Origin: Anaerorhabdus furcosa | GTDB lineage: Bacteria > Bacillota_I > Bacilli_A > Erysipelotrichales > Erysipelotrichaceae | DNA length: 64,000 nt | Assembly: GCF_900167375.1 (NCBI RefSeq) | Contig: NZ_FUWY01000001.1 | Location: 434,001-498,000, forward strand | Reading direction: 5' to 3' | Shown here: positions 12,735 through 56,453 of the stretch, in pieces | How the letters are laid out: each line of letters begins with the position of its first letter | How positions within the stretch are numbered: position 1 is the first letter of the stretch | Notes under the pieces: model-generated | Seen by the model: only the letters and a program-made list of their open reading frames with translations | Database searches by the model: none | What the model was told of the DNA's origin: nothing | Translations under genes and position numbers: made by a program

Positions 12735-12778
12735 TGCGACACCTCTTTCTATCAACGTTTCAATATACGCATAACATA

Positions 12779-12812
12779 AATTAAAACCCACGCGTAAAGA
12801 CAGCATGGGTTT
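12779..12812 (-). terminator. Attenuator terminator of the L10 leader
   Basis: Minus-strand AAACCCATGC pairs with GCGTGGGTTTT, followed by a U-rich run, 45 nt before the rplJ start. The 5' side contains GCTGTCT (12798-12804 complement), which can instead pair with AGACAGC at the start of the leader (12871-12877 complement). This offers an antiterminator alternative. Confidence 0.75.
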
Positions 12813-12885
12813 GAAAGTTCATATTAATAGAATTTTCTACCTCGGCAACCTGATTAAGCACTAGGCCGTTGCTGTCTATGGTATA
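12779..12885 (-). ncRNA. Ribosomal protein L10 leader
   Basis: The transcript between the promoter and rplJ carries GUGCUUAAUCA ... GUUGCCGAGGU, the conserved L10-binding kink region of Firmicute rplJ leaders, followed by the attenuator. L10 (with L12) binding should favour termination when the proteins are in excess. Confidence 0.82.
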
Positions 12886-12899
12886 TTGATAACGTTGTT

Positions 12900-17577: not shown

Positions 17578-17612
17578 AATAAAAAACGCCTCTATTATTT
17601 CTAATAGAGACG
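17578..17612 (-). terminator. T-box terminator (Arg leader)
   Basis: An 11-bp minus-strand stem CGTCTCTATTA / TAATAGAGGCG with GAAA loop followed by six U residues. The alternative antiterminator contains the T-box motif just upstream in the transcript. Confidence 0.9.
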
Positions 17613-17815
17613 AAAAATTCCGCGGTACCACTCTGCTTATTTAGTTTCACTTAAAAACTAAATCACTTTCCTTTAATGCAGGCTCACATCCATCTTACTA
17701 ACATACGATGAATCTCAAAAGCTCGTTTCGTCTACCTTCCTCATTCCCTCTTTCACCTATCCAGGGCTCTCTAATAAAGTTTCCAGTAAAGTACTACTCT
17801 TTCTCTTCGATGTGT
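17578..17815 (-). ncRNA. T-box leader with Arg (CGA) specifier
   Basis: The minus-strand leader has a Stem I with GAAGAGAAAGAGUAGUA, the AGAGAGCC element and a GGUGAAAG apical loop. The antiterminator T-box UGGUACCGCGG lies at about 17620-17630. Aligning the specifier loop with that of the well-known glyQS T-box places CGA at 17723-17725 in the codon position (ACGAAA-CGA-GCUUUUGAG), so uncharged tRNA-Arg is the expected ligand. The transcript leads into the ABC importer starting at 17460. Confidence 0.87.
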
Positions 17816-17818
17816 TTA

Positions 17819-21684: not shown

Positions 21685-22455
21685 TTATTTCACCCTCTTT
21701 CCATTACGAGGTAAACTTATACTAGAAGACGTACTATCAGAGTGTGGAAAACTTGTACGAGTATGATTCATCTTTTCTTCAATTAGATGAAGAATAAATG
21801 ATGTGATTGTTGTTAATACCAAATAGATACACGCAATAATGAAGAATGTTTCTGGAAATCTAAATACACTACCCGCTATTTTATTCCCTTGATACATCAA
21901 TTCAGTAATCGCTATAACCGATAAAACCGAACTGTCTTTGATGTTTACAATAAATTCATTCCCAATTGCTGGAAATGCATTTTTAATGGCTTGTGGAATC
22001 ACAACCATCATCATCGTTTGGATATTTGACATACCTAAAGAACGAGCAGCTTCCGTTTGTCCTTTATCAACAGATTGAATACCTGAACGAATAATTTCAG
22101 ACATATACGCACCTGTATTAATTGATATAACAAAGATACCTGCAACAAGTGGTGACCACTTAATTACCTTTAACAATGAATAATAAATAAACACTGCTTG
22201 TACCATCATTGGTGTTCCACGGAATACTTCAATATATACCGTTGAAATAACATCGTAAATCTTTTTTATTGTTTTAACTAAAGCAGAAGAACTTTCATCT
22301 ACTTTGATTGCTTTTAAACCGCCTACAACTAATCCAATTACAAGCCCTATGATTGTACCACTTAGTGCTACCAGTAATGTATTTTGTACACCTAGTAACA
22401 AAGATGGCCAAGAAGATTGAAGTATCTTCCAAACGATTTCAAAACTGAAATCCAT
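21685..22455 (-). CDS. Amino-acid ABC importer, permease (probable lysine system)
   Basis: A 256-aa HisMQ-type permease with about five TM segments and the EAA loop EAARSLGMSNIQTMMMVVIP. The last 25 residues form a Ser-rich, hydrophilic tail (TSFPHSDSTSSSISL) not usual for the family. It starts 2 nt after the binding protein and abuts the ATPase start. Confidence 0.92.
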   Translation of the reverse strand: MDFSFEIVWKILQSSWPSLLLGVQNTLLVALSGTIIGLVIGLVVGGLKAIKVDESSSALVKTIKKIYDVISTVYIEVFRGTPMMVQAVFIYYSLLKVIKWSPLVAGIFVISINTGAYMSEIIRSGIQSVDKGQTEAARSLGMSNIQTMMMVVIPQAIKNAFPAIGNEFIVNIKDSSVLSVIAITELMYQGNKIAGSVFRFPETFFIIACIYLVLTTITSFILHLIEEKMNHTRTSFPHSDSTSSSISLPRNGKRVK

Positions 22456-22457
22456 TA

Positions 22458-23294
22458 TTATTCTGCCGTTGCTGGTTGACGATCTGTAGCAGCTTTCATG
22501 ATCTCAACTCTTTCTTCTTCAGTAATTGAATCTAAGGCAGCTTGGACTTTATTTAGTAATTCTGTATTTCCTTTTTTGATAGCGATCGATACTGTTGTGT
22601 CTGCATCAAATCCCTTACCCTCTTCAAATGTAACTATCTTTAAATCAGGATTAGCTGCAACAACACCTTGTGCAACTGGTAATTCAGCTGTTAGTCCATC
22701 TACTTCACCTTGTTGAAGTGATAATACCATACGAGGGTATGTTGCTTGTGGTGTCATGTGATTAACACCTTCGATTTGATCAATTACATCATCATATAAC
22801 GTATTGATTTGACCCAATACTTTTTTACCTGTGAAATCTTGAATTGAAGTCGCATTCGCTAATTCATCATCTCCACGTACAATCATAACCATTTGTGATT
22901 CATAATATGGCTTTGTGAAATCTATTGCTTCTGCACGTTCAGGAGTTGCTGTCATACCTGCAATAATTGCATCTACTTCATCATTGTTTAATCCCGTAAT
23001 CAAACCTTCCCAAGCAATTGACTTAATTTCTAATTCTTGTCCTAATGAATCTGCAATTTTACGAGCTATCGCAACATCATATCCATCACAATAATCTGTA
23101 GCTGAAATTTGAACTGCAGTATCATTTGCAGTAGTTTGTGTCCAGTTAAATGGTGCATAATTACATTCCATAGCTACTGTAAATTTTTCCTTTGTTCCCT
23201 CTGTTGGTTGCCCTGTAGAATTTGGTGTAGCTGGTGCACTTGAACATCCTACAAGCAATAATCCCGCTGTTAATAACACTAATACTTTTTTCAT
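22458..23294 (-). CDS. Amino-acid ABC importer, substrate-binding lipoprotein (probable lysine system)
   Basis: A 278-aa lipoprotein; signal VLVLLTAGLLLVGC with Cys at residue 16, then a family 3 solute-binding fold (FTVAMECNYAPFNWTQ, YDVAIARKIAD, GMTATPERAEAIDFTKPYY). The ATG follows AGGAGG. It is the first gene after a lysine riboswitch and intrinsic terminator. Cationic amino-acid specificity is inferred from that leader, not from residues. Confidence 0.93.
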   Translation of the reverse strand: MKKVLVLLTAGLLLVGCSSAPATPNSTGQPTEGTKEKFTVAMECNYAPFNWTQTTANDTAVQISATDYCDGYDVAIARKIADSLGQELEIKSIAWEGLITGLNNDEVDAIIAGMTATPERAEAIDFTKPYYESQMVMIVRGDDELANATSIQDFTGKKVLGQINTLYDDVIDQIEGVNHMTPQATYPRMVLSLQQGEVDGLTAELPVAQGVVAANPDLKIVTFEEGKGFDADTTVSIAIKKGNTELLNKVQAALDSITEEERVEIMKAATDRQPATAE

Positions 23295-23347: not shown

Positions 23348-23364
23348 ACTTTAAAAGGTAAATT

Positions 23365-23527
23365 GTGTAATAGCGCCCTTCGATTGAAGGAGTGTTATCA
23401 GTCTTCCCAATAACCCCATAGTATTTTCTTGCCAGAAAACCTATTCGGCGATGATTACCTTTCACTAGATTCTTTGTCTGCCGACTCCTCTAGTTACTCA
23501 TTTGCATCGCTACCTCTATACGTTTTG
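23365..23527 (-). ncRNA. Lysine riboswitch (L box)
   Basis: The minus-strand leader shows AUAGAGGUAGCGAUGC, then GAGGAGUCGGCAGA, GUGAAAGGUAAUCAUCGCCGAA, a UUUUCUGGCAAGAAAA hairpin, and a closing GGGCGCUAUU. The AGAGGUGCGA-like start, CGCCGAA and CUGGC are the conserved L-box signatures. Lysine binding should favour the downstream terminator and switch off the importer. Confidence 0.9.
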
Positions 23528-23611: not shown

Positions 23612-24148
23612 TTAATCTCCTATTATCTCAAAATATTTATACAATGCTAACGCTGTTTCACCGTCATGAAAACCATTGTTTCTCAACTTTTCTTTGACTT
23701 TGCTTCGCTCTTCAAAATAAGCATTAATTAATTCTTCCTTTTGGACCTTGAGTTCTCCTTCACAAAATTGCGCATAAACAACCACGACCCTTTGCGTTGT
23801 AAGTCCATTACAGGGATAGAATTCAGTGATTATCTTTTCGTTTTTTATTTTTATTCCAGTTTCTTCAAAGACTTCTCTTCGTGCTGCATCCAGAATATCT
23901 TCACCTTCTTCAACACCACCACAAATTAACTCTGTAGAAAACTTATCCACAACAAAGCGATAATTTTCAGTCAATAGAATAGAATCACCCTTTTCAACAA
24001 TCACGACAACAGAAATACCTTTAAACTCCACAACGTTGTAATCTTCGATATGATGCCCATAATAATCTAAATCCACTAAATTTAATTTGATAAAATTACT
24101 TTCATATATTGTTTTTGTTCCATGTATCTTCACATACTTATTATCCAT
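23612..24148 (-). CDS. NUDIX hydrolase (ADP-ribose pyrophosphatase-like)
   Basis: A 178-aa cytosolic pyrophosphohydrolase. The Nudix box is GGVEEGEDILDAARREVFEE followed by TGI, complete with the catalytic Glu residues. The upstream beta-rich domain and following EFYPCNGLTTQ segment resemble ADP-ribose pyrophosphatases. It lies 29 nt downstream of the TcyP-type transporter gene and is likely co-transcribed. The ATG at 24146-24148 is favoured by spacing from AGGTAG; a GTG 6 nt upstream is possible. The precise substrate is unknown. Confidence 0.85.
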   Translation of the reverse strand: MDNKYVKIHGTKTIYESNFIKLNLVDLDYYGHHIEDYNVVEFKGISVVVIVEKGDSILLTENYRFVVDKFSTELICGGVEEGEDILDAARREVFEETGIKIKNEKIITEFYPCNGLTTQRVVVVYAQFCEGELKVQKEELINAYFEERSKVKEKLRNNGFHDGETALALYKYFEIIGD

Positions 24149-24177
24149 AGACACTACCTACCTAGATAAATTATAGC

Positions 24178-25512
24178 CTATTCTTCTTTGTTTTTTTCTA
24201 ATTTATTAACAATAACTCCTGTTACAAGTGTTCCATTAACATTTAACATCGTTCTTCCCATATCTAAAATTGGGTCAATAGCCAAAATAACACCTAGGAG
24301 TGGATAGTATTCCACAAGTCCCATACCTGTTAATACAATTGCAACTGACATTGTAGCAGCACCCGGTATTCCTGCAATTCCAAATGATCCAAGCACAACC
24401 ACAAAGACTAACATAATGTAGAAAGAGATATCCATTGGAATTTGAAGCATTGTTGCAAGAGCAATAACTACTAGAGTTGGATAAATTCCAGCACAACCAT
24501 TCATCCCCATATTCGCACCAAAGCTACCTACAATATCAGCTATTCCTGAAGGAATGTGTAACTTTGTCGTCATTGCATCAATGGTTACCGGAAGTGTCCC
24601 TAAACTTGATCTTGATGTAAATGCTAAGAGAAGCGGTTTCTTTACTGCCTTTAAATATTCCCCCACAGGTTGCTTAAATAGTTTCACTAGAATCAGGTGA
24701 ATAATAAACATAACTAAGATTGCTGCATATAAAACAATTACAAAATTAATTGCTCCTAATATTGTTGAATTACCTTGCGTAATGACTACATTTGCTAAAA
24801 GCGGAATAATTGCATAAGGCATTAAATCCATAATAAATACCGCAAGTCTTCTAACCAATTGATAACTAGCTTCTACAAGTTTAATCAACGGTTGAACTTC
24901 ATCTTTTGTTTCCAATGCTTTCAATGATATTCCTAGAAGAAACGCCAGAACAATTACTGCTAAGATATTCCCTTTTGCAAAAATATCAACTGCATTGTTT
25001 GGTACCATACCACGTAATGTAGCAACAAATGTACTTACTTCTCGGATTGTACTTTGTGTATCACCTGCTGTTGTTAAACTTTGAGTAAGTGGTAGTAATC
25101 CCGATAACACAATCCCCACCAATGAAGCAATTACCGTTGTTGTCGCCAAAACCACAACAGTTCGAATCGCTAGTTTTTTAAAGTTTTGTTTGGTTGTGAT
25201 GATGACGCGAATCATTGAGATGAACACTAGCGGTATTGCTACCATCTTCAACAAATCCATGAATCCATATCCCACTAAACCATACCAACTTGATACCTCT
25301 GTTTTTATAGTTGGAAATTCATTGGCAAGCCAATTGCCAACCAACCCTAAAATTACTCCAATCAACATAGCTAAAACTAGAATCTTCGTATAGTTGTACT
25401 CCAACTTATCTAGTTTTCGAATTAGTACAACTGCAATAACAAAGAAAAGTATAAAAAATACAGTTGTCCAATTACTTATTTGTAAATACCCATTTAAAAA
25501 TGTCTCTAACAT
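24178..25512 (-). CDS. tcyP: L-cystine:H+/Na+ symporter (TcyP family)
   Basis: A 444-aa dicarboxylate/amino acid:cation symporter-fold membrane protein. It carries the blocks characteristic of the cystine TcyP branch: AFTSRSSLGTLPVTI, GANMGMNGCAGIYPTLV, GIPGAATM and LDMGRTMLNVNG, very like Bacillus TcyP. The ATG follows GGAGG at 7 nt. Its 5' leader encodes a cysteine-codon-rich peptide followed by a terminator, which independently points to sulfur amino acid transport. A NUDIX hydrolase gene follows in the same direction. Confidence 0.88.
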   Translation of the reverse strand: MLETFLNGYLQISNWTTVFFILFFVIAVVLIRKLDKLEYNYTKILVLAMLIGVILGLVGNWLANEFPTIKTEVSSWYGLVGYGFMDLLKMVAIPLVFISMIRVIITTKQNFKKLAIRTVVVLATTTVIASLVGIVLSGLLPLTQSLTTAGDTQSTIREVSTFVATLRGMVPNNAVDIFAKGNILAVIVLAFLLGISLKALETKDEVQPLIKLVEASYQLVRRLAVFIMDLMPYAIIPLLANVVITQGNSTILGAINFVIVLYAAILVMFIIHLILVKLFKQPVGEYLKAVKKPLLLAFTSRSSLGTLPVTIDAMTTKLHIPSGIADIVGSFGANMGMNGCAGIYPTLVVIALATMLQIPMDISFYIMLVFVVVLGSFGIAGIPGAATMSVAIVLTGMGLVEYYPLLGVILAIDPILDMGRTMLNVNGTLVTGVIVNKLEKNKEE

Positions 25513-25527
25513 AATTTATCCTCCAAA

Positions 25528-25563
25528 TTAAAAAGTGCCCTTGCATTTATTCCGCAAGAGCAC
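25528..25563 (-). terminator. Attenuator terminator in the tcyP leader
   Basis: Minus-strand GUGCUCUUGC (25554-25563) pairs perfectly or G-U with GCAAGGGCAC (25535-25544), followed by five U residues, and ends 16 nt before the tcyP start. The 5' arm can alternatively pair with ACAAGAG upstream (25602-25608). Confidence 0.88.
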
Positions 25564-25608
25564 CCACTATTTTATGTATTAATAAAAACAGTACGAAAAT
25601 ACTCTTGT

Positions 25609-25665
25609 CTATATTCTATAACAAGAGCAACAGCAACTAACTTGTACAAAGTGTTGTTTTCTCAT
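25609..25665 (-). CDS. Cysteine-rich leader peptide of tcyP
   Basis: An 18-residue peptide, MRKQHFVQVSCCCSCYRI, with four Cys in five consecutive codons near its end. The ATG at 25663-25665 has AGGAG at 8 nt; an in-frame ATG 6 nt upstream sits on the ribosome site. The start lies about 20 nt after a strong promoter, and the stop immediately precedes segment 2 of the attenuator. Codon placement, not peptide function, is probably what matters. Confidence 0.75.
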   Translation of the reverse strand: MRKQHFVQVSCCCSCYRI

Positions 25666-25689
25666 ACTCATTTCTCCTAATATAGTCAA

Positions 25690-25718
25690 AGTATAAAACC
25701 TCAACATTGAACTGTCAA
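25690..25718 (-). promoter_or_regulatory. Promoter of the leader peptide-tcyP unit
   Basis: -35 TTGACA (25713-25718), a 17-nt spacer and -10 TATACT (25690-25695), giving a very short untranslated stretch before the leader peptide. Confidence 0.8.
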
Positions 25719-25758
25719 AACATATGCACTTGAGTATAATAAGTATAGGAGGATATTT

Positions 25759-26061
25759 ATGATTAAACATTTAGTATTATGGAAACTTTCAGAAACTTAT
25801 TCAATAGAAGAAAAAGAAGAAGTCAAACAAAATGCAAAGAAAAATTTAGAACAATTAATTGATAAGATACCAAATATTTCTAAACTCGAATTAATTATCA
25901 ATCCCTTAGATTCTTCTAATGTTGATCTTTGTTTGGATAGCGAGTTTGAAACCATCGAACAATTAAACACTTACGCAAATCATCCACTACACAAAGAAGT
26001 AGCTAGCACTTACATTACTCCCTTTGTTGAAACTCGAACATGCATTGACTACAAAAAATAG
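25759..26061 (+). CDS. Dabb-type (stress-responsive alpha/beta barrel) protein
   Basis: A 100-aa protein with the Dabb fold pattern: MIKHLVLWKLSE at the start (conserved His and the KL strand), a central helix, then DLCLDSEFETIEQLNTYANHPLHKEV, where the HPxH segment is typical. Such proteins are small dimeric barrels of mostly unknown role; some are hydroxylating or stress proteins. It has an AGGAGG ribosome site and a shared terminator at its end. Confidence 0.8.
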   Translation: MIKHLVLWKLSETYSIEEKEEVKQNAKKNLEQLIDKIPNISKLELIINPLDSSNVDLCLDSEFETIEQLNTYANHPLHKEVASTYITPFVETRTCIDYKK

Positions 26062-53866: not shown

Positions 53867-54250
53867 CTATACCTCCACAAAAGTCTTGACTTTTTCCCAG
53901 CATTCATCAAGTCTATTACACATCTTCTCAACATACCAGTAACCAAGTACAGCTTCAAATCCTGTTGATGTTCTATAAGTTGTTACATCTGTATTCTTCG
54001 GTACGCTATCACTTTTAAAATTTCTTCCACGCTTAAAAATATCCAACTCAGTTTCACTAAAGAATTCTTCTTCTACGAGTTTATGATAGAAACTCGCTTG
54101 TGCTTTTGCACTAACGAAGCGAACACTTTTAGTTTGTAAATCATTGGCACGATTGTATCCTTTTTCTACAAGATATTCTCTTACATAAAGTGACCAAACT
54201 GCATCTCCTAAATACGCTAAAGTACTTCCAGAGATTTCATTTGTCTTCAT
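53867..54250 (-). CDS. mrnC: Mini-ribonuclease III
   Basis: A 127-aa RNase III-like domain without a dsRNA-binding domain, which matures 23S rRNA in Firmicutes. Catalytic segment TLAYLGDAVWSLYVREYL, then GRNFKSDSVPKNTDVTTYR and GFEAVLGYWY. Its start codon overlaps the cysS stop (TAATG), and it precedes rlmB. Confidence 0.95.
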   Translation of the reverse strand: MKTNEISGSTLAYLGDAVWSLYVREYLVEKGYNRANDLQTKSVRFVSAKAQASFYHKLVEEEFFSETELDIFKRGRNFKSDSVPKNTDVTTYRTSTGFEAVLGYWYVEKMCNRLDECWEKVKTFVEV

Positions 54251-55584
54251 TACAATAATCCTCTTTCAATTAATTGATTTCTCACTTTGTCAGCTTCATC
54301 AAAATTCTTTTCTTGTTTTGCGCTATTCCACATTGCAAATAAATTTTTATCTTCTTCAGTTAAACTAATGCGATGATATTCTATCCCTAAAACATCTAAC
54401 ATTTTTTCAACTGTATTAATATATTTACTTACTTCATAAGCATCAATGTCTTTAACACGTAATACTTGGTTTAGTTTTTTTACTGTTTCAAAAATAACTG
54501 CATAAGCATTTGGTGTATTCAAATCATCATCCATTGCATCTAAGAATTGTTGAACTAATTCTTTATCCAATCCTTCTTTTATTGTTTCGTTTGCTAATGC
54601 TAATTTTACTGTAGCTTGTTTTAGTGGAGTTAAAACTTTATCCAATTCTTTTTGTGCAGTTTCAAATACTTCATCACTAAAATTTAGTTCCATACGATAA
54701 TGTACAGACAACATCAACCAACGTACTAGTTGTGGGCTAAATTGCTTTAGTACATCTTTTGCAAGTGTAAAGTTTCCTAATGATTTACTCATTTTTACAC
54801 CATCGATATTTATCATCCCATTGTGTAACCAAAAATTTGCGAGTGTTGTGTTGTGTAAAGCACGGCATTGCGCAACTTCATTTTCGTGATGAGGGAAACG
54901 TAAATCCATACCACCACCATGAATATCAATTAAATCTTTACCAAATTCTTTATTGATCATGACAACGCATTCCGTATGCCATCCTGGTCTTCCATCTCCC
55001 CATTTTGTATTCCACTTAATACCCATATCTGTTTTCTTCCACAGAGCGAAATCCAAAGGGGATTCTTTTTTATCATTTTCTTCTATTCTTGCACCGACTT
55101 GTAAATCATCAATGTTTTGATGTGATATTTCTCCATAAGATTCAACACTGTTAACTCTAAAGAAAACATCACCGTCAACTTCATACGCATGACCTGTTTC
55201 AATTAATTCATCAATAAATTTAATGATTTCATCCATCGTTTCTGTTACGCGAGGTGTCTTGTACAAATCGTGTGCATTTAATTTATGTCTTACTTCGTTA
55301 TAAGCTTGAATGTATTCTTCCGTTATTTCTGCTTCATGTTTGTGCTCTTCTATCGCTTTGTTGATAATCTTATCATCGACATCTGTATAGTTCGAAACAT
55401 ACTTCACCTTATAGCCTTCTGCTTCAAATACTCGGCGTAGTGTATCAAATACTATGATGGGTCTGGCATTTCCAATATGGATGTGGTTGTAGACAGTAGG
55501 TCCACATACATACATACTCACTTCACCTTCTACTAAAGGCTTAAATTCTTCAATCTTTAATGTTCTAGTATTATATAATCGCAT
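54250..55584 (-). CDS. cysS: Cysteinyl-tRNA synthetase
   Basis: A 444-aa class I synthetase charging tRNA-Cys. The HIGH-type motif is HIHIGNARP, KMSKS is VKMSKSLGNF, and the zinc ligands include the Cys of YVCGPTVY and HTECVVMINKEF, with HHENEVAQ. The ATG follows AGGAGG. It heads a cysS-mrnC-rlmB-sigH operon. A T-box with a Cys specifier lies 660 nt upstream on the same strand, beyond an oppositely oriented gene. Confidence 0.97.
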   Translation of the reverse strand: MRLYNTRTLKIEEFKPLVEGEVSMYVCGPTVYNHIHIGNARPIIVFDTLRRVFEAEGYKVKYVSNYTDVDDKIINKAIEEHKHEAEITEEYIQAYNEVRHKLNAHDLYKTPRVTETMDEIIKFIDELIETGHAYEVDGDVFFRVNSVESYGEISHQNIDDLQVGARIEENDKKESPLDFALWKKTDMGIKWNTKWGDGRPGWHTECVVMINKEFGKDLIDIHGGGMDLRFPHHENEVAQCRALHNTTLANFWLHNGMINIDGVKMSKSLGNFTLAKDVLKQFSPQLVRWLMLSVHYRMELNFSDEVFETAQKELDKVLTPLKQATVKLALANETIKEGLDKELVQQFLDAMDDDLNTPNAYAVIFETVKKLNQVLRVKDIDAYEVSKYINTVEKMLDVLGIEYHRISLTEEDKNLFAMWNSAKQEKNFDEADKVRNQLIERGLL

Positions 55585-55801: not shown

Positions 55802-56158
55802 ATGATTAACAAAACAAGAATTATGCTTTACGGAAACGACATTGACAAATTAAGTGAATTTTGGAAGTTTGCATTCAATGCTGAAATTATTGAAACAAAC
55901 GAGCTTCCTGATGGATTCACAAACAAAGTGCTTTCTTTATCCCCAACAATTGAAATATCTTTGTTTAATAAGGAATTCATTAAAAAATATTCGCCTGAAG
56001 TTATCGATGCAGTCCCATCATTAATGCTTTATACAAACGAGTTTGATGAATTGCACCAACGAATCAAAACAGCAAGTATGACGATGGAAATTGATGGACA
56101 TCCATCTTTTAACTTCTCTGATCCAGAAGGCAATTACTTTGTTGTAGTAAAAGAATAA
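55802..56158 (+). CDS. VOC-family (glyoxalase/PhnB-like) protein
   Basis: A 118-aa single VOC module, NKTRIMLYGNDIDKLSEFWK with the family's N-terminal beta-strand and FYxFAFNAE-type turn, ending FNFSDPEGNYFVVV. Such proteins are metal-dependent lyases, isomerases or resistance proteins, or have no known role; substrate not assignable. It is transcribed opposite to cysS and lies between cysS and its T-box, possibly inserted there. It has its own terminator (56166-56195). Confidence 0.82.
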   Translation: MINKTRIMLYGNDIDKLSEFWKFAFNAEIIETNELPDGFTNKVLSLSPTIEISLFNKEFIKKYSPEVIDAVPSLMLYTNEFDELHQRIKTASMTMEIDGHPSFNFSDPEGNYFVVVKE

Positions 56159-56245: not shown

Positions 56246-56282
56246 AAAATAAAAATGGCATCCTATAAAAAGACGCCATTGC
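56246..56282 (-). terminator. Terminator of the Cys T-box
   Basis: Minus-strand AATGGCGTC / GGATGCCATT hairpin followed by UUUUUAUUUU, just after the T-box element. Confidence 0.85.
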
Positions 56283-56450
56283 GTGGTTCCACTTTTCTTA
56301 CTTCTTGAACTCTTAACGCGAGAAACGTTTCATCCTACTTATCGGACAAACCCTCCTAGATGCATTTCAAACTAAATCGCACTAACTGTTTCACCAACCC
56401 AGTTATCTCTACCGATTGCTTTAGTTCTACTCTTCTATTCATCAGTTTAT
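56246..56450 (-). ncRNA. T-box leader with Cys (UGC) specifier
   Basis: The minus-strand transcript carries the AGAGA element, a GGUUGGUGAAAC apical loop, the T-box GUGGAACCACG (about 56281-56292), and a terminator. Aligned with the glyQS specifier loop, UGC (56362-56364) occupies the codon position (GAAA-UGC-AUCUAGGAG), so the ligand should be uncharged tRNA-Cys. The first gene downstream in this orientation is cysS, after 660 nt that contain the antisense VOC gene. Confidence 0.83.
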
Positions 56451-56453
56451 ATT

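Follow-up and report, generated by a model that had tools for sequence, protein, structure and literature searches.

How is the tcyP-like gene of Anaerorhabdus furcosa regulated, and does the RNA ahead of it sense cysteine? A preliminary description had read the region upstream of the gene as an attenuator; coordinates here refer to the window, i.e., the whole 64-kb stretch of DNA that was analysed, and all features of the tcyP locus lie on its minus strand. The gene (24178–25512), preceded by the Shine-Dalgarno (SD) sequence GGAGG at 25520–25524, encodes an SDF-family symporter of 444 residues (PF00375, E 1.9e-92). In a tree of 70 proteins, this transporter falls in a branch (support 0.99) with Escherichia coli TcyP, annotated as a cystine/sulfocysteine:cation symporter, and with L-cystine transporters of Cytobacillus and Enterococcus, set apart from GltP and DctA; its closest relatives are 45–48% identical. 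By this placement the symporter is a member of the TcyP branch, with cystine as its predicted substrate. A NUDIX hydrolase gene (23612–24154) begins 23 nt downstream of tcyP and, judging from the spacing, is probably co-transcribed with it. Next to these genes, a lysine riboswitch (23363–23526, minus strand) lies directly upstream of genes for a solute-binding protein (22458–23294) and a permease (21685–22455), an arrangement that suggests a lysine ABC importer.

As expected of a trp/his-type attenuator, a predicted SD-led short ORF is located between the promoter and tcyP. The promoter is of the sigma-70 type, TTGACA-N17-TATACT (25690–25718), with 11 of 12 consensus matches. The leader ORF (25609–25665; MRKQHFVQVSCCCSCYRI) comprises 18 codons from ATG 25665 to the stop codon TAG at 25611–25609, and its SD sequence AGGAG (25674–25678) stands 8 nt before this ATG; a second in-frame ATG at 25671 is too closely spaced from the SD. 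The first bases of the Cys codons are 25635, 25632, 25629, and 25623, corresponding to Cys11, Cys12, Cys13, and Cys15. The strong promoter, the good ribosome site, and the 18-residue frame with Cys at four of five consecutive codons were therefore all found as previously claimed, and so was the stop just before a complementary motif, as ACAAGAG starts right after it, at 25608. Dinucleotide shuffling of the region never yielded an SD-led short ORF with at least four Cys in five codons (0 of 20,000 shuffles), and of the window's 286 SD-led short ORFs, this leader is the only one with even three. The codon cluster thus matches the amino acid predicted for the downstream gene, four Cys in five before a member of the TcyP branch, and the earlier argument that transporter family and codon both point to cysteine is upheld by the tree and the shuffles.

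The third feature of such an attenuator, an intrinsic terminator between the leader ORF and tcyP, is also present, together with two competing helices. Segment 1 (25620–25629) overlaps the Cys13-Ser14-Cys15 codons and, without a ribosome, pairs with segment 2 (25598–25609), which starts at the leader stop and can pair either with segment 1 (through 25609–25600) or with segment 3 (through 25607–25598). Segment 3 (25553–25565) forms either the 3′ arm of the antiterminator (25564–25555) or the 5′ arm of the terminator. In the computed fold, an inner hairpin (25565–25593) stacks within the 2:3 antiterminator and can coexist with 3:4 as well. The terminator 3:4 (25530–25565) has 13 bp, a loop of 7 nt, and a U tract at 25534–25530; it is the sole terminator found in the region, for which shuffles average 0.0. 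The complementary heptamers are CTCTTGT (25627–25621), ACAAGAG (25608–25602), CTCTTGC (25560–25554), and GCAAGGG (25544–25538). Their 3′ ends are those given in the preliminary description (25621, 25602, 25554, and 25538), and the pairings 1:2, 2:3, and 3:4 proposed there can all form. The terminator of that description is likewise real, but the word “perfect” slightly overstates it, since the helix includes G·U pairing. Computed energies are −10.9 kcal/mol for 1:2, −16.2 kcal/mol for 2:3 including the inner hairpin, and −18.8 kcal/mol for 3:4, and the three helices are mutually exclusive. When the spacer was shuffled, helix 2:3 was matched in 18 of 20,000 cases, helix 1:2 in 132, and both together in 3. 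Since helix 1:2 does not include the codons of Cys11 and Cys12, pairing does not account for them.

Antiterminator and terminator rest on RNA pairing alone, a property that would equally suit a hairpin switch run by another agent, such as an aptamer or an RNA-binding protein, to which the leader ORF is incidental. This reading is highly improbable: no Rfam family came near its gathering score at the leader, the SD follows the predicted transcription start by only about 5–10 nt, leaving little space between promoter and ORF to accommodate an aptamer, and Cys codons recur before the genes of relatives in unrelated RNA sequence. A T-box leader (RF00230), which likewise senses the charging of a specific tRNA and controls termination, although by direct tRNA binding and with no leader peptide, is ruled out at tcyP, as 25400–25780 contains no match to the family.

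Whether a ribosome on the leader could operate the switch was addressed by folding calculations in which the ribosome masks the RNA as far as about 12 nt from the A-site codon, counted from its first base. For a transcript that stops just short of segment 4, the mean pair probability of 2:3 was 0.86 with the ribosome at Cys11, Cys12, Cys13, or Cys15, vs. 0.00 with the ribosome at the leader stop codon. The blocked fraction of the terminator 5′ arm fell from 0.94 with the stall to 0.10 at the stop, and when the intervening RNA was shuffled, 1 of 400 sequences showed as large a drop. In these calculations the antiterminator is thus free with a stall at the Cys codons and masked with the ribosome at the stop, and the geometry of the claimed trp/his ribosome-stalling layout works for all four Cys codons but not for the stop codon. 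With segment 4 transcribed, 3:4 is the favoured helix at equilibrium in every ribosome state, even the stalled one; hence, regulation requires kinetic trapping along with transcription–translation coupling. Classical attenuators would share this need for kinetic switching.

Collectively, the leader of tcyP is very probably a transcription attenuator of the trp/his type, ribosome-mediated and specific for cysteine, that controls a cystine importer, as read from its sequence. RNA polymerase would start at about 25683, and a ribosome would load on the leader ORF. With charged tRNA-Cys scarce, the ribosome would stall at one of the four Cys codons, covering segment 1 and not segment 2; segment 2 would then pair with segment 3 before segment 4 exists, the terminator would come too late, and tcyP would be transcribed. 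With cysteine plentiful, a ribosome at the stop codon would cover segment 2, allowing 3:4 to terminate transcription, and with no ribosome, 1:2 plus 3:4 would form, also leading to termination. For this scheme we infer leader translation, ribosome–polymerase coupling, kinetic trapping in 2:3, and the response to cysteine.

Conservation of the Cys codons in relatives had been set beforehand as a test that could refute the attenuator. Upstream regions of SDF genes were taken from the family, order, and class. A first scan accepted SD-led ORFs of 6–45 codons that contained Cys-Cys or three or more Cys; a strict filter additionally demanded that the ORF start with ATG and end 10–130 nt before the gene. 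In the sister clade, which comprises 20 paralogous transporters and is restricted in the sample to the order of A. furcosa (support 1.0), the first scan detected an SD-led Cys-rich uORF before 14, and two more have a single Arg-Cys. Under the strict filter, a Cys-Cys leader remained in 13 of the 20 upstream regions (other residue doublets, at most 3 of 20; shuffled upstream regions, 0.0 for Cys-Cys) and occurred in none of 77 upstream regions of distant SDF genes. This filter also excludes the tcyP leader of A. furcosa itself, for which the scan opens the frame at an earlier TTG, and is therefore conservative. Examples of the leaders are MEILCCCTFSNYNGNTKV and MGIQCCCTFSNDNWNTKV (G263 and G264); others end in ...CCHNRC (G316, G317, and G319), ...RCCCCFFNKE (G128 and G105), or ...RCC (G126), and TcyP orthologues of another family (G134 and G145) have RCC leaders. 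Cys codons thus recur widely among relatives, in many different leaders before the same type of transporter. Across the leaders, they comprise 41 UGU and 11 UGC, and the use of both indicates that the amino acid is kept, and not the RNA sequence alone. No Cys leader was found before the closest TcyP orthologues, those of family f13 (45–48% identical) and of genera g52 and g94, and the four complementary segments of A. furcosa are not common to the sampled relatives, whose nearest TcyP is 45–48% identical.

The same comparison bears on two other readings of the leader. It might be a general translation sensor, in which any slowing of the leader ribosome, by limitation of any amino acid or by antibiotics, leads to read-through and Cys codons are merely slow and rare. 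Cys codons are indeed rare in the 64-kb window (1.2% of residues in long frames), and stalls at other codons near residues 11–16 would have a like effect. Yet Trp, His, and Met, which are also rare, do not cluster in the leaders of the clade, and the gene function fits cysteine, making a general sensor extremely improbable. Alternatively, a Cys-rich nascent peptide might sense metal, redox state, or thiol stress in place of charged tRNA-Cys and itself set stalling or release. Cys clusters can bind metals, and a copper-responsive uORF, which has reportedly been published (PMC9426467), provides a parallel. We consider this quite improbable, because leaders differ freely in how many Cys they contain, how these are spaced, and where they lie, with no peptide motif common to all, because some clusters occupy residues 5–7 (MEILCCC), still deep in the ribosome tunnel, and because the downstream gene is a predicted cystine importer.

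Two further observations concern these relatives. The motif CGATGTT(G), at Arg-Cys codons, is common to leaders of three families (L003, L004, L009, L012, L014, L016, and L108–L110), whose transporters are only about 30% identical. In a search of 26 genomes with the Arg-Cys motif CGATGTTG of these leaders, the inspected matches gave only transporters as regulated genes; the other matches were coding or lacked a plausible uORF and were rejected. In several relatives and in Clostridium bornimense (L006, L100–L102, and L031), tcyP stands right behind a CoA-disulfide-reductase-like gene, a pairing that is, by gene content, a predicted link with thiol metabolism. No Cys uORF heads these operons of relatives, and a Cys-rich frame upstream of the C. 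bornimense tcyP (L031) was dropped because it lies inside the preceding gene.

If the Cys leaders of relatives are regulatory, they would appear to be read out in different ways. In G058 (L015), a uORF extends from −208 to −94 before the gene in a three-segment layout with a long antiterminator inside the leader ORF, and the RNA between the Cys-Cys pair and the leader end pairs with the 5′ arm of the terminator. The blocked terminator arm was computed at 0.96 with the stall at Cys-Cys vs. 0.07 once the ribosome is at the stop (4 of 400 shuffles), which makes this leader, on modelling, a convincing candidate for a second Cys attenuator, of a different design from that of A. furcosa. The stall effect was weaker in G265 (0.74 to 0.25; 20 of 400 shuffles) and weaker still in G082. 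G263, G273, and genus g26 each have a Cys leader and a terminator, and in genus g26 a TGTTGAA:TTCAACA pairing takes in the last Cys codon and the stop codon; folding gave no clear stall-dependent switch in G263 (0.72 to 0.73), G273 (0.58 to 0.57), or genus g26. The leaders of genus g61 (family f2) have no terminator. In G126, TTAACTGTC, immediately 3′ of RCC, pairs with GACAGTTAA at the ribosome-binding site (RBS), and the same helix in G112 reads TAAACTGTC:GACAGTTTA, a compensating change. A stall in G126 raised the computed SD accessibility from 0.51 to 0.86–0.98, and folding showed no clear RBS switch in G112, G134, G145, or G053. The g61 leaders are, in these models, suggestive of RBS sequestration.

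Leader-peptide attenuators are textbook systems in Proteobacteria. The enterobacterial trp and his attenuators resemble the A. furcosa leader in an SD-led leader, clustered cognate codons, the 1:2/2:3/3:4 alternatives, a terminator, and a stop beside segment 2, whereas the A. furcosa leader uses Cys, controls an importer, and belongs to the class Bacilli. His leader attenuators have been reported in Firmicutes, in the Bacillus cereus group, Peptostreptococcaceae, and six his operons of Erysipelotrichales (PMC9413887); they share with A. furcosa three to five cognate codons, a terminator with an antiterminator, and, in the Erysipelotrichales cases, the order, but control a histidine biosynthesis operon instead of cystine uptake. 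Such attenuators also precede hisS paralogues in bacilli (PMC2965389), and the ilv operon of Staphylococcus aureus has a Leu-rich one (PMC5794164), a leader-peptide attenuator likewise in Bacilli, although directed at the biosynthesis of branched-chain amino acids. For cysteine, the uORFC-8-2 motif upstream of cysS in Rhodobacterales, for which Cys-tRNA sensing has been proposed (PMC8632094), is similar in having a uORF with two tandem Cys codons and, beyond it, a terminator; it differs in its host group (Alphaproteobacteria), its gene, and its two stems without a described four-segment alternative. Cys leaders of mycobacteria and other Actinobacteria (PMC1262725; Canestrari 2020, as cited in PMC13236596) have Cys codon runs near the leader stop and attenuate sulfur genes, but are leaderless, precede other genes, and lack intrinsic terminator hairpins (PMC1262725). 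A leaderless Cys uORF of the mycobacterial type is ruled out for A. furcosa by the SD and the 13-bp terminator. The earlier statement that the layout is unusual in Firmicutes must thus be tempered in view of these His, Leu, and Cys examples. A literature search, with subscription papers mostly outside its reach, yielded neither a Cys leader in Firmicutes nor one preceding a cystine transporter. The tcyP leader would extend the known leader-peptide attenuators of Firmicutes to cysteine and to a transporter.

Cysteine-related RNA control in A. furcosa is probably not confined to tcyP. The genome contains 17 T-boxes above threshold, and the one at 56266–56451 of the window (minus strand) aligns UGC (Cys) at the specifier. 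The next minus-strand gene is cysS (54250–55584, identified from its sequence), which starts about 680 nt downstream; a plus-strand ORF of 118 residues (55802–56158) stands between the two. This Cys T-box may have been separated from its target cysS by an insertion, and the cell, on such sequence features, probably reads tRNA-Cys by two RNA mechanisms. Among matches to a three-Cys-codon pattern in the A. furcosa genome, only that of tcyP is a clear leader; a looser two-Cys pattern gave at least 168 matches vs. 72 in the control, and cysK (G000:C4) has no Cys uORF.

It seems slightly better than an even chance that a sensor of tRNA-Cys charging recurs, repeatedly rebuilt, before the cystine importers of this order and of one other family of the class, with differing read-outs (four-segment termination in A. 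furcosa, three-segment termination in G058, and apparent RBS sequestration in g61), and alongside a Cys T-box within one genome. If true, this would imply that transcription and translation are functionally coupled in a lineage related to Bacillus, a genus in which such coupling is considered weak; uncoupled transcription has been reported in B. subtilis. The Cys leaders also suggest a substrate for many SDF transporters that are otherwise annotated as dicarboxylate or glutamate symporters.

Other RNA elements were observed in the window. A T-box at 17603–17816 (minus strand), with an apparent CGA (Arg) specifier, precedes a gene for an amino-acid-type solute-binding protein. A fluoride riboswitch (2350–2422) and a ribosomal protein L10 leader (12772–12899), both on the minus strand, score above their Rfam thresholds.
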